NCBI GenBank assembly: GCA_014239265.1
Contig: JAAZZH010000002.1
Span: 1-49,553 of the forward strand
Direction: 5' to 3'
From: Actinomycetota bacterium
Lineage (GTDB): Bacteria; Actinomycetota; Acidimicrobiia; Actinomarinales; Actinomarinaceae
Length of the DNA stretch: 49,553 nucleotides
A program made the position numbers and the translations under genes. Shown here piece by piece: positions 36,737-42,236 of this stretch (the first letter of the stretch is position 1; each line of letters opens with the position of its first letter). The notes beneath the pieces were generated by a model, which was not told the origin of the DNA, made no database searches, and saw nothing but the letters and a program-made list of their open reading frames with translations.

Positions 36737-37195
36737 ATGAAGTACAAATCAGATATAGATAAAATGCGGGTAGCTCTTGATGAGGCTAAAAAAGCACTCA
36801 ATTTAGATGAAGTACCTATTGGAGCAGCAGTCTTTGATAAAGATGATAATTTAATCGCATCAGCTCACAATATGAGAGAAGTTGACCAGAATCCAGTGTC
36901 ACATGCTGAAATTATAGTGATTCAAGAAGCGTCAAAAGTTTTAGAAACTTGGAGACTAGAAGATACAACAATTGCTGTTACCGTTGAACCAGATGCCATG
37001 TGTGCTGGGGCTATTGTAAATGCAAGAATAAAAACACTCTTATACGGCGTTCCCAACTTGAAAGCTGGTGCCGCATATTCTCTATATAACATTCCTCAAG
37101 ATCCAAGATTAAATCACTTTGTTGAGATTAGAGAAAATATATTACCACATGAATCTGAAGTTATATTATCCTCTTTCTTTGAAAGTAAGAGATAA
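36737..37195 (+). CDS. tadA: tRNA adenosine(34) deaminase with Asp at a zinc-ligand position
   Basis: A 152-residue deaminase making inosine at position 34 of tRNA-Arg(ACG). HAE (His56, Glu58) and the deaminase fold are clear, and the C-terminal half follows E. coli TadA closely (GAAYSLYNI, LNHFVEI). The zinc motif normally PCxxC reads PDAMC: the first Cys is Asp86, leaving His56 and Cys89. The codon is GAT, two changes from a Cys codon. The substrate gene tRNA-Arg(ACG) lies 325 bp downstream. Confidence 0.88.
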   Translation: MKYKSDIDKMRVALDEAKKALNLDEVPIGAAVFDKDDNLIASAHNMREVDQNPVSHAEIIVIQEASKVLETWRLEDTTIAVTVEPDAMCAGAIVNARIKTLLYGVPNLKAGAAYSLYNIPQDPRLNHFVEIRENILPHESEVILSSFFESKR

Positions 37196-37222
37196 GTAAA
37201 CTAAGAACTTAGGTCTTAAACT

Positions 37223-37311
37223 GGAGGGATCGCATAGTCTGGCCTAGTGCGCACGCTTGGAAAGCGTGTAAGGGTTTATCCCCTTCGAGGGTTCGAATCC
37301 CTCTCCCTCCG
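37223..37311 (+). tRNA. tRNA-Ser (GGA)
   Basis: Acceptor GGAGGGA/TCCCTCC, anticodon stem CACGC/GCGTG with loop TTGGAAA (anticodon GGA), long variable arm, T-arm GAGGGTTCGAATCCCTC, discriminator G. Confidence 0.95.
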
Positions 37312-37334
37312 CGTAGAAGAACTATACCTTTTTT

Positions 37335-37420
37335 GGAGGGATGGCCGAGCGGACGAAGGCGATAGTCTTGAAAACTATTGTATGTATTCCATACCGTGGG
37401 TTCGAATCCCACTCCCTCCG
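37335..37420 (+). tRNA. tRNA-Ser (TGA)
   Basis: Acceptor GGAGGGA/TCCCTCC, anticodon stem ATAGT/ACTAT with loop CTTGAAA (anticodon TGA), long variable arm, T-loop GTTCGAATC, discriminator G. Confidence 0.95.
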
Positions 37421-37427
37421 CAAGCCT

Positions 37428-37594
<167 letters not shown>

Positions 37595-37607
37595 CTTCGT
37601 TTTGAAT

Positions 37608-38270
37608 CTAGTAGTTAAAAAGCGGTTCTTCTAGATTCCAACCTGGTTTATTGCCCCAAGTATTTAAAAAGGTGACATCCTCTAAGGGATCCCTTTTAGC
37701 AACTCCCCACTTTCCCAGTGGGTAGCCAGCAGTAACAACTGCATTAATTCTCCACCCTTTGTCAGTAGGGATATTCAAAGCATCGAAAGTTTTTTCCTGG
37801 TTAAACATACCAAGCACAGTAGTCAGACAAGTACCGATACCATGTGCTCTTCCAGCTAACATAAGATTCCAAATAGCTGGGTAAATTGATGAGCCTGATG
37901 GATCATTTCTTGATAAAACTACAAACTGTGCCGGCACTTTGTGAAAATTTTCAGATAACCAAGTAGCAGACTTACTAATTCTCACTACTTGATCAGCTTT
38001 AGTTTCATCTAACACTTTTGACGCACCCATATCTGGATTATTTTCATAATACTCTTTGATATAAAAGTCCCAAGCTTCTCTATAAAGGTCTCCAAGTAGA
38101 TTTTTTATATTTGATTCTGTGACTACAATAAATTTCCAACCCTGATTATTAGCTCCACTTGGAGCACGAACAGCTGCATCAACCATTTGCTTTAAAATTT
38201 CATCAGGTATAGGTTCTTCAGTAACACGCCTCATAGCTCGAGTTGTATACAGTGCTTCAAATACATCCAT
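37608..38270 (-). CDS. Nitroreductase-family flavoprotein
   Basis: A 220-residue FMN oxidoreductase: N-terminal YTTRAMRRVTEEPIPDEIL, FMN-phosphate site RAPSGANNQGWKFIVV, dimer segment and GIGTCLTTVLGMF, then the VTAGYPLGKWG end. The substrate is not known. It has a leaderless start on a palindromic -10 shared with the divergent enoyl-CoA hydratase gene. Confidence 0.88.
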   Translation of the reverse strand: MDVFEALYTTRAMRRVTEEPIPDEILKQMVDAAVRAPSGANNQGWKFIVVTESNIKNLLGDLYREAWDFYIKEYYENNPDMGASKVLDETKADQVVRISKSATWLSENFHKVPAQFVVLSRNDPSGSSIYPAIWNLMLAGRAHGIGTCLTTVLGMFNQEKTFDALNIPTDKGWRINAVVTAGYPLGKWGVAKRDPLEDVTFLNTWGNKPGWNLEEPLFNY

Positions 38271-38276
38271 AAAAAT

Positions 38277-38289
38277 ATCTTACTAAGAT
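38277..38289. promoter_or_regulatory. Palindromic bidirectional promoter
   Basis: ATCTTACTAAGAT is a perfect 13-bp palindrome made of two facing TAAGAT -10 boxes around one C. Leftward: 6 nt to ATG 38270. Rightward: 7 nt to ATG 38297. Both start codons fall where transcription should begin. Confidence 0.65.
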
Positions 38290-38296
38290 TACTTAT

Positions 38297-39106
38297 ATGG
38301 AACAGAAATTAATAAAAGAAATTACTAATGAAGTTGCTTATATATGGATTAATAGACCAGAAAAAAAGAATGCGATGGATTTTGATGTTTGGTTTGGGAT
38401 TCCAGACCTAGTAAAAGAAATAAATGAAAAAGAGGAAGCTAAGTGCATTCTTTTACTAGGAAAAGGAGATTCTTTTTCAGCAGGAATTGACATTGCAACA
38501 TTCATGGGTGACATGAATTTAAATGAAAATCTCTCATCCACTGCTGACGACAGAAGAAAGACTATGAAATTAATAGATGACATGCAAGGTTCTTTTACAA
38601 CAATTGCAAATTCTAAAGTTCCAGTAATTGCCCTTGCACATGGTTTCTGCATAGGAGGGGCAACTAGCATGATATCTGCATGTGACATTCGTTTATCGAC
38701 AAAAGATACAAAATTTTCAATCGGAGAAACAAAACTAGGATTAGTTGCCGATGTAGGAGCTTTACAGAGAATGCCTAACATTATTTCAAAAGGAGACTTA
38801 AGAGAACTTGCATTTACAGGTCGACATTTTGACGGTCAGCACGCAGACAAAATACGTTTTGTCAATGCTATTTTTGATAGCGTTGAAGAACTTCACGAAG
38901 CAGGTATTAAGTTAGCTGAGGAAATTGCATCAAATTCAAGACACATTGTTGGAGGCACGAAAAATGTGCTTGATAAAGGAGAAGACCTAACTACGGATCA
39001 AGCACTTGATTATGTTAGGTTGTGGAACACTTCTTATCTAATATCTGATGACTTAAAAGAAGGAGTAACCGCATTTTTTGAGAAAAGAGATCCAGACTTT
39101 AAGTAA
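38297..39106 (+). CDS. Enoyl-CoA hydratase/isomerase family protein
   Basis: A 269-residue crotonase-fold protein: VAYIWINRPEKKNAMDFDVW, oxyanion residues in DSFSAGIDIATF and AHGFCIGGATSMISACDIR, and EE-type catalytic positions replaced by an LGLVADVGALQRMP segment as in dienoyl-CoA isomerase-like members. It acts in fatty-acid oxidation or a related pathway. Its end overlaps the convergent dGTPase-like gene by 8 nt. Confidence 0.87.
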   Translation: MEQKLIKEITNEVAYIWINRPEKKNAMDFDVWFGIPDLVKEINEKEEAKCILLLGKGDSFSAGIDIATFMGDMNLNENLSSTADDRRKTMKLIDDMQGSFTTIANSKVPVIALAHGFCIGGATSMISACDIRLSTKDTKFSIGETKLGLVADVGALQRMPNIISKGDLRELAFTGRHFDGQHADKIRFVNAIFDSVEELHEAGIKLAEEIASNSRHIVGGTKNVLDKGEDLTTDQALDYVRLWNTSYLISDDLKEGVTAFFEKRDPDFK

Positions 39107-40079
39107 TTTTTTCGTAAGCAGACAAAGCAAACCTGTCTGTCATTCCGGCAACATAGTCTATAGCATTTTCAATATCTGATTGATCCTGTCTATAAGATTC
39201 TGGTAGTTCATTTAAATTTTCTACAAAATATTCAACTAGCTTGATAACAATATTTTTACACTCAGCTCTTTGTACTTCAGTACCTTTTCTTAGGTAGACT
39301 TTTTCAAACATAAAATTTCTAAGATCTTGCATAGTTTGTGCCACCTCTGGATCCATTTCAACCTTGCCACTAGATGAAGCTTTAAAAACTCCAGAGATTA
39401 AGCTATTAATCCAATTTTTTCCTGGAGGACCCAGGTCTTTAATGAAAGAGGTAGGAATATCTTTTTGGTTCAAAACACCCGCCCTAATTGCATCTTCTAC
39501 GTCATGGGTTAGATACGCTATTCGGTCAGCAAATCTGCAGATCATACCCTCTTGGGTGCTTGGTGCATCAGCATACTTCCATGGATGTATACGAATACCA
39601 TCGAGAGTTTCAAACGAAAGATTGAGATTTTCTATACGATCTAGAACCTTTACAGAGTTTTCTGAATGACTCCAACCACTTGGATGAAGTTCATCTAAAG
39701 CATCCTCGCCAGTATGACCAAAAGGAGAATGGCCAACATCATGACCCATACAAATTGCTTCAGTAAGATCTGGATTTAGCCCCATCGTCTTTGCAATAGA
39801 TCTTCCAACTTGTGTGACCTGTAAAGTGTGAGTCATCCTTGTAATGAAGTGATCACCATCCGGGTTAATAAATACTTGGGTTTTATGTTTTAACCTTCTA
39901 AAGGCTTTTGAATGGATAATGCGATCACGATCTCTTTCATAAACAGTACGAAACATGTCTTGATCTTCTGGGTTAGTTCTACCTTTAGATTTTTCTGATA
40001 GGGCTGCATAGCTCGACAAGGTAATTCTTTCATTCGCCTCTCTCCACAAGCGATCTCTCAGAATAAATGAATCATTCAT
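39099..40079 (-). CDS. dgt: dGTP triphosphohydrolase-like HD protein
   Basis: A 326-residue HD-domain protein of the Dgt type (deoxyguanosinetriphosphate triphosphohydrolase-like). SKAFRRLKHKTQVF, TRMTHTLQVTQVGRSIA (first His), CMGHDVGHSPFGHTGEDAL (HD motif) and ADRIAYLTHDVEDAI complete the metal site. It controls dNTP pools. Leaderless: TAATCT 6 nt before ATG. Confidence 0.92.
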   Translation of the reverse strand: MNDSFILRDRLWREANERITLSSYAALSEKSKGRTNPEDQDMFRTVYERDRDRIIHSKAFRRLKHKTQVFINPDGDHFITRMTHTLQVTQVGRSIAKTMGLNPDLTEAICMGHDVGHSPFGHTGEDALDELHPSGWSHSENSVKVLDRIENLNLSFETLDGIRIHPWKYADAPSTQEGMICRFADRIAYLTHDVEDAIRAGVLNQKDIPTSFIKDLGPPGKNWINSLISGVFKASSSGKVEMDPEVAQTMQDLRNFMFEKVYLRKGTEVQRAECKNIVIKLVEYFVENLNELPESYRQDQSDIENAIDYVAGMTDRFALSAYEKIT

Positions 40080-40654: not shown

Positions 40655-40700
40655 ATTCTTTGGTGCATTATAGAAGAGAAATCTATTACCATTTAATAAT

Positions 40701-42236
40701 ATGCAACAAGCACTGTACAGAAAATATAGACCAGAGAAACTTAGCCAACTAGTAGGTCAAGAAGAAGCTGTCTCTTTAATAACTCAACAAATTAAAAAAG
40801 ATAATTTAGGACATGCCTATTTGTTTTCAGGTCCCCGCGGTGTTGGTAAGACATCTTTAGCAAGGATTATTGCAACTCAACTTGGATGCGATCCAATTTT
40901 TGACATTACTGAAATTGATGCAGCTTCAAACAATAAAGTTGATGATATAAGAGATATGAATGAGAGTGTGAACTTTATTGCTAGTAGTCCTGGACAAAAA
41001 AGAGTGTATATTTTAGATGAAGTGCATATGCTTTCAAATGCAGCATCCAACGCTTTTCTCAAAACACTAGAAGAGCCCCCAGAACACATTATCTTTATTC
41101 TGGCTACAACAGAACCTGAAAGGGTACTTGAAACCGTGAAGAGCAGAACAACACATATTGTATTTAAGAAAATATCGGAAGAAGATATTGTTAAAACGAT
41201 TCAGGAGATCGGGAAAAAAGAAAAGATGATACTTGAGTTAGATGTGTTAAAAATCATCGCTACATTTTCTGATGGATCATTAAGAGATGGAATAAATCTT
41301 TTCGAGCAAACTTATAACACTTTTGGAAAAAAAACAACTGTTGATGATTTATATGGAATACTTGGAAAACTCAGCACAAAAGAATTCGAAACAATCATTA
41401 ACTCAATTGAAACTCAAGATACAGCCGCAGTTCTTAGAGTGATAAGGGATGCTTATAAAAAAGGACTTCAGCCAAGTGACGTAATGGAGTCCATTTCAGA
41501 ATTCTTCAGAAATATGTTTTATCTAAAATATCTTCCCAATGATGAAAAATTAGATAACCTAACTCCAAATATAAAAACTTTATTGGAAACTGCTGATAAG
41601 AAAGTAAATGCAAAACAATTAATCAGAATTCTTGACTTAATTGACGACCTAAATCAAAATCTTTCTAACAGCACATCACAACATCTCAAACTTGAGTTAT
41701 TTTTAATGAAAGTTATTAAACCTGAACTAGGATCAGATGTAAAAACTATCGGCTACAGAATAGACCTTCTCGAAGGAAAGCTATCAAACAATGAAGTTAT
41801 GCCAAAAAAAATGAATTCTCCCCAAGTAGAAAAAAAAGATACTCCATCTGAAATTAGTATTCCAAAAAATATCAGTAAAAAAAATTCAACACCTAAAAAA
41901 GAATCACTTGGGAATTTTGATGTTTTCTGGCCAAAAATTCTTGAAGAAATGAAACACGTGTTAACTCCAAGAAAATATTCCTACTTAACAGCAGTTAGAG
42001 CAGAAGTTGAAGAAGGGGATGTTATTAATTTAATTGTTGATAAAGAAAATGAATTTTTGTTTGAAGAATTAAAGAAATCTGAAGAAATTATTGATTTACT
42101 TAAATCTATAACTGCCAAAATGATGGGTTTAGAGATTATAGTTAAAGTTACTCTCAGCTTGGACACAAAGAAAAACAATCATGAAAAAGGTTTAAGCGTT
42201 GCACAGGAAATTTTTGACGTAGAGGATCTAACTTAA
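40701..42236 (+). CDS. dnaX: DNA polymerase III gamma/tau subunit, zinc module deleted
   Basis: A 511-residue clamp-loader ATPase: YRKYRPEKLSQLVGQ, Walker A GPRGVGKTS, EIDAASNNKVDDIR, Walker B VYILDEVHML, sensor LATTEPERVLETVKSRT, collar domain and a tau-type C-terminal domain (about 405-500). The zinc-binding loop between the helix after Walker A and EIDAAS, where E. coli has four Cys, is shortened by about 20 residues; only one Cys (Cys63) remains. It is translated just upstream of a convergent small gene. Confidence 0.93.
   Translation: MQQALYRKYRPEKLSQLVGQEEAVSLITQQIKKDNLGHAYLFSGPRGVGKTSLARIIATQLGCDPIFDITEIDAASNNKVDDIRDMNESVNFIASSPGQKRVYILDEVHMLSNAASNAFLKTLEEPPEHIIFILATTEPERVLETVKSRTTHIVFKKISEEDIVKTIQEIGKKEKMILELDVLKIIATFSDGSLRDGINLFEQTYNTFGKKTTVDDLYGILGKLSTKEFETIINSIETQDTAAVLRVIRDAYKKGLQPSDVMESISEFFRNMFYLKYLPNDEKLDNLTPNIKTLLETADKKVNAKQLIRILDLIDDLNQNLSNSTSQHLKLELFLMKVIKPELGSDVKTIGYRIDLLEGKLSNNEVMPKKMNSPQVEKKDTPSEISIPKNISKKNSTPKKESLGNFDVFWPKILEEMKHVLTPRKYSYLTAVRAEVEEGDVINLIVDKENEFLFEELKKSEEIIDLLKSITAKMMGLEIIVKVTLSLDTKKNNHEKGLSVAQEIFDVEDLT

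Follow-up and report, generated by a model that had tools for sequence, protein, structure and literature searches.

The window analysed here, a stretch of 49,553 nucleotides from an Actinomarinaceae assembly of 1.05 Mb (96 contigs, 84% complete), carries a nitroreductase-family gene and a crotonase/enoyl-CoA hydratase family gene that diverge from an intergenic sequence of 26 bp at 38271–38296, AAAAATATCTTACTAAGATTACTTAT. The ATG of the nitroreductase ORF lies at 38270 on the minus strand and that of the hydratase ORF at 38297 on the plus strand. Between either start and its upstream in-frame stop the sequence holds no ATG, GTG or TTG, which rules out a longer form of either gene that begins at a usual start codon. 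The genes and the elements between them are as follows:

37608–38270, minus strand: nitroreductase-family gene, 220 aa (family search, PF00881, E 8.8e-21)
38271–38296, no strand: intergenic gap, with a length of 26 bp in 21 and 34 bp in 13 of the 34 genomes compared
38271–38276, minus strand: 6-nt nitroreductase spacer from box to ATG, transcription start predicted at 38270; N6 is the genus-wide peak
38277–38282, minus strand: putative −10 box TAAGAT of the nitroreductase gene, 6 nt from the ATG, TAnnnT in 34 of 34 genomes
38283, no strand: lone base separating the −10 boxes, C in the window; C in 20 and G in 14 relatives (n = 34)
38284–38289, plus strand: putative −10 box TAAGAT of the hydratase gene, 7 nt from the ATG, TAnnnT in 34 of 34 genomes
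38290–38296, plus strand: 7-nt hydratase spacer, start predicted at 38297 or at 38296 (1-nt leader); extended by 8 nt in 13 of the 34 genomes
38297–39106, plus strand: crotonase/enoyl-CoA hydratase family gene, 269 aa (family search, PF00378, E 4.6e-39)

The arms ATCTTA (38277–38282) and TAAGAT (38284–38289) form a perfect inverted repeat around C38283, and the original prediction had described the sequence accurately: mirror-image TAAGAT boxes in a 26-bp gap, 6 and 7 nt from the two starts. It had further proposed that the gap may hold two complete core promoters for a pair of leaderless genes on one perfect palindrome. An Rfam search over 37000–39500 returned tRNAs only. A 103-aa ORF at 37209–37520 on the minus strand runs antisense to the tRNA-Ser cluster (37223–37519) and carries the pattern 'EREGFEPSRG..', characteristic of spurious proteins that result from translating the antisense strand of tRNA genes.

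Taken by itself, the palindrome is unsurprising. The window contains 20 exact 6-1-6 palindromes where shuffled sequence gives a mean of 21.3; the 13-mer occurs once in the window's genome, and near-matches to it within the window are about as frequent as expected by chance. The pair of −10 boxes, unlike the palindrome, is beyond chance. In stretches of the window's own genome and five relatives we collected 172 divergent gene pairs, 50 of them with gaps of 14–60 bp, and 15 of these 50 carry TAnnnT on both sides with a spacer of 6 or 7 nt to the start codon, whereas shuffled gaps show the same two-sided geometry in a mean of 0.81 cases and a maximum of 4 (2000 shuffles). The 15 include orthologues from different genomes and are therefore not all independent; at least three pairs are represented twice each, namely nitroreductase/hydratase, dtd (D-aminoacyl-tRNA deacylase) with its PNPOx-family neighbor, and one that includes a low-molecular-weight phosphatase. 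The exact arrangement is another matter. The pattern CAT-N6-AnnnTA-N-TAnnnT-N7-ATG has 40 matches in 42 genomes (control, 14), of which the nitroreductase/hydratase pair accounts for 21. The other 19 fall at two recurring sites (in 4 and 11 genomes) and as four single matches, and none of the five regions inspected, namely two genomes for each recurring site and one of the four single matches, is a two-gene gap.

The geometry of each half of the gap can be compared with that of the genus at large. Among 1116 genes from sampled stretches of six genomes, 170 have TAnnnT exactly 6 nt before the first ATG, a peak over a background of about 40 genes per position at spacers of 9–29, and an internal-ATG control has no peak at spacer 6. 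Four of the genomes (G000, G034, G021 and G030) show the N6 peak clearly; in G036 (10 of 146) and in G011, for which the sample is small (6 of 38), it is weak or uncertain. Spacers of 7 and 8 nt are found for 59 and 69 of the 1116 genes, respectively. The N7 spacing on the hydratase side is thus weakly enriched compared with the dominant N6, a result that we count against the two-promoter reading. The −35 consensus is absent from the 169 N6 genes profiled, 17 of which have an extended −10 TGn. Judged by its sequence signature, TAnnnT-N6-ATG lacking a −35 element is a genus-wide leaderless class, like that published for actinobacteria (PMC3160421 and PMC3898074, in excerpt).

Nor does the gap itself show a −35 consensus. 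A sigma-70 two-hexamer consensus scan of 38150–38420 found no site. We had considered −35 elements located inside the opposite gene, and rejected them since none is recognizable by consensus either in this interval or in the 169 N6 genes. Synonymous codon identity is nevertheless at its highest over the opening 12 codons of the hydratase gene (0.82, first of 23 blocks) and mildly raised at the nitroreductase start (0.66, second of 19 blocks, calculated without the frameshifted L016 and the truncated L025). These raised values may reflect weak upstream elements inside the opposite gene, but are too unspecific to claim a −35 element. RbpA (PF13397), sought as a helper of −35-less promoters, has no match in any of the 42 family genomes, although these are Actinomycetota; a CarD-like ORF of 184 aa is present in the window's genome (L135:419-973), which we count in favor of the two-promoter reading.

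Conservation among relatives bears most directly on which features of the gap are under selection. All 42 family genomes have a hydratase when distant paralogues are included, and 35 of them have a close orthologue (E below 1e-90); a nitroreductase orthologue is found in 34. The one hydratase genome missing from the 34 is G009, where the match ends at residue 25, apparently at a contig end; its locus (L023) was left out of all gap counts. All of these 34 genomes, which belong to the Ca. Actinomarina group, have the two genes side by side and divergent. In two relatives outside the group (L042 and L043), uninformative for this comparison, the hydratase does not adjoin the nitroreductase. In seven of the 42 genomes neither gene is present as a close orthologue, and this we also count against the two-promoter reading. 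The 34-genome counts exclude L032–L041, whose gap sequences duplicate other loci (40 rows with duplicates). In G013 (L016 and L063) a frameshift interrupts the nitroreductase ORF some 15 codons in, indicating a pseudogene or an assembly error, and the L016 nitroreductase was omitted from the tree, which was otherwise built from both genes.

Both boxes are retained throughout the 34 genomes. The left box stands 6 nt from its start codon in every one (TAAGAT in 16, TAAAAT in 15 and TATGAT in 3), and the right box is always TAnnnT (TAAGAT in 26, TAATAT in 5, TAAAAT in 2 and TAAAGT in 1). T1, A2 and T6 of both boxes show zero parsimony changes each on the 34-genome tree, while the inner box positions show 0 to 4, the first three bases of the left spacer 6 to 9 and the seven bases of the right spacer 2 to 5. 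For comparison, third codon positions of the hydratase gene change a mean of 5.97 times and only 3.3% have no change. Chance, on which TAnnnT and short palindromes are to be expected everywhere in AT-rich DNA, could draw on the shuffle-like number of 6-1-6 palindromes and on the 19 pattern matches outside the gene pair. It is refuted for the −10 boxes by their conservation, with the excess of two-sided pairs pointing the same way, and still stands for the exact symmetry; as an account of the gap as a whole it is scarcely credible.

The symmetry fares quite differently from the boxes. It is exact in 13 of the 34 genomes and its state changes five times on the tree, and it is broken in various ways with both boxes still TAnnnT (for example, TATGAT/TAAAAT and TAAAAT/TAAGAT). 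A perfect 13-bp inverted repeat between two metabolic genes would suit an operator for a dimeric transcription factor, with the resemblance to −10 hexamers as a secondary overlap. Changes in one arm are not mirrored in the other, however, even though TAnnnT is kept on each, the 13-mer has no second copy in the window's genome, and neither flanking gene is a regulator by family search. We consider an operator very improbable and reject it because its symmetry is not conserved. Invariant T1, A2 and T6 positions in the absence of conserved symmetry argue for selection on two −10 hexamers rather than on a palindromic operator, and the perfect symmetry noted in the original prediction is not the feature that is maintained.

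A further question is whether both boxes are used. It could be that only the nitroreductase-side promoter is real, the hydratase being read from some other start and its TAnnnT being a by-product. The left N6 is fixed in all 34 genomes, the right spacer takes either of two lengths (7 or 15 nt), and the weak enrichment of N7 would also fit such an asymmetry. On the other hand, T1, A2 and T6 show no changes in the right box either, and the consensus scan of 38150–38420 offers no other sigma-70-type site. The upstream neighbor of the hydratase is oppositely oriented, so the hydratase needs a promoter of its own. Activity in one direction alone is therefore unlikely, although we rate it as somewhat more probable than an operator.

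In 13 of the 34 genomes (L024–L031, L062, L064, L065, L067 and L069), eight extra bases separate the hydratase from its box (N15), and the gap length changes only once on the tree. In these genomes the hydratase mRNA would probably have a short leader of about 8 nt, and the sequences suggest that a short insertion or deletion toggles it between leaderless and leadered forms. The N15 genomes count against leaderless transcription of the hydratase as a general property of the relatives. Of the leaderless pair originally proposed, the nitroreductase side thus holds up well, with N6 in every genome, and the hydratase side holds less firmly. Likewise, the proposal of two complete core promoters gains from the mirror-image boxes, the leaderless spacing, the missing −35 elements and the conservation of both boxes, and loses its appeal to symmetry.

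Other divergent pairs show that this gap belongs to a family in which it is not the most compact member. The dtd and PNPOx-family genes diverge from a gap of 17–23 bp in 31 of 31 rows among the matches listed (30 loci, from matches in 41 genomes, plus L079), with sizes of 22 bp in 6, 23 bp in 5, 19 bp in 11 and 17 bp in 9. In these same 31 rows the −10 boxes overlap or share a TA, at near-leaderless spacing. The gap in the window's own genome (G000:C11, L099:19071-19092) measures 22 bp; the rows themselves are L136–L165 and L079. The original description of the nitroreductase/hydratase gap as about as compact as a promoter can be does not survive this comparison, since the dtd/PNPOx gaps in the matches listed carry the same signals in less DNA. 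In the second pair, der (a GTPase gene) and ispH, all 29 rows that contain both genes (30 loci in all, rows L171–L200) have exactly 26 bp between the start codons, an N6 spacer on either side and a core of AATATA-GC-TA[TA][TC]CT; examples are L134:5523-5548 (G034) and, in the window's own genome, L189.

Based on these comparisons, the gap very probably consists of two complete, opposed, −35-less promoters of sigma-70 type placed back to back and one base apart. RNA polymerase holoenzyme, with no need of a −35 element, would recognize a single TAnnnT at a time and melt the DNA there, and RNA would begin at or within one base of the start-codon A. The leftward product would be a leaderless nitroreductase mRNA and the rightward product a hydratase mRNA that is leaderless or has a 1-nt leader. 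Because the −10 boxes abut, one polymerase would exclude the other and the pair would fire alternately. The start sites, activity in both directions and mutual exclusion are what we infer from the arrangement of boxes and genes; steric exclusion of two polymerases has been reported for bidirectional promoters (PMC12825309). The arrangement is most simply seen as a product of genome streamlining in a bacterium with leaderless genes, and not as a dedicated switch.

A broader interpretation is that selection maintains a recurrent module in Ca. Actinomarina, namely a divergent gap made up of two leaderless core promoters only, in which polymerase competition is the sole link between the expression of the two genes. 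The module would take two forms, back to back (26 bp, boxes 1–2 bp apart, as in nitroreductase/hydratase and der/ispH) or overlapping (17–23 bp, as in dtd/PNPOx). We regard this as possible but somewhat doubtful. If true, it would provide alternating or noise-coupled output of two genes without any regulator.

The founding paper on promoters with symmetric −10 elements appeared in Nature Microbiology in 2021, and its content is taken here from later papers that cite it. Such bidirectional promoters, studied by Warman, Grainger and colleagues, most often serve mRNA genes (PMC12825309 and PMC10268837, both in excerpt), and are defined by divergent starts 7–25 bp apart (PMC10268837, same excerpt), with 18 bp the most frequent distance. 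Like them, the nitroreductase/hydratase gap has opposed −10 elements at one spot and an expected competition between two polymerases. As described there, however, bidirectional promoters have shared or overlapping −10 elements, whereas the boxes here abut with one base between them and no overlap, and 27 bp separate the predicted starts at 38270 and 38297 (26 bp with a hydratase start at 38296). The gap thus falls outside the published class in both start distance and reciprocal overlap of key −10 positions, though just outside as regards spacing, and differs further in that both genes are leaderless by prediction. The dtd/PNPOx pair is closer to that class. Its predicted starts are 23 bp apart for the 22-bp gap and 18 bp apart for the 17-bp gap, distances described as frequent among bidirectional promoters (PMC12825309, in excerpt), and the pair in the window's own genome, with its 22-bp gap, would fall within the 7–25 bp range.

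A second comparison is with actinobacterial leaderless promoters. TANNNT without a −35 element and leaderless mRNAs are described for Mycobacterium tuberculosis (PMC3898074, in part), and the nitroreductase/hydratase gap likewise has TAnnnT about 6–7 nt upstream (N6 and N7) and no −35, a few bases before the start codon as in the accounts excerpted from PMC3160421 and PMC3898074. Those accounts, in the parts seen, treat mostly single promoters, whereas here there is a divergent pair. A figure legend in PMC3898074 nevertheless places both starts of M. tuberculosis prpD and its divergent regulator at their start codons, and calls closely juxtaposed divergent promoters common in that organism; divergent leaderless pairs as such are thus already known. 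In the Bradyrhizobium csoR-cueA divergon (PMC5057107, in part), partly overlapping −10 elements also serve divergent genes, and csoR is leaderless by start-site mapping. There, only one gene is leaderless (the cueA leader is 42 nt) and the promoters are overlapped by the CsoR operator, whereas both genes are predicted to be leaderless at nitroreductase/hydratase and no regulator gene or operator is evident. Within the portions of the literature on leaderless and divergent or bidirectional promoters that we consulted, we found no case in which abutting or overlapping −10 boxes serve a pair of genes that are both leaderless, and our search returned no Actinomarina paper that also contains the word 'leaderless'.

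Abutting −10 elements, starts about 27 bp apart, predicted leaderless transcription of both genes and conservation together make the gap, on the sequence features compared here, a compact variant of known promoter kinds. With no leader, −35 element or separate spacer, it would approach the lower bound on the DNA needed by two divergent genes, and conservation throughout the genus supports a function. Since each upstream region lies inside the other gene, pairs of this sort may serve as clean natural constructs for examining polymerase competition at abutting −10 elements. A still shorter interval occurs elsewhere in the window, where a dnaX-like gene (named from its sequence; start at 40701, plus strand) is separated by 8 bp (40693–40700) from a divergent gene, the longest ORF of which begins at 40692 on the minus strand. 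The dnaX TAnnnT, at N8, overlaps the start codon of this ORF, and the true start of the left gene is therefore probably further in.
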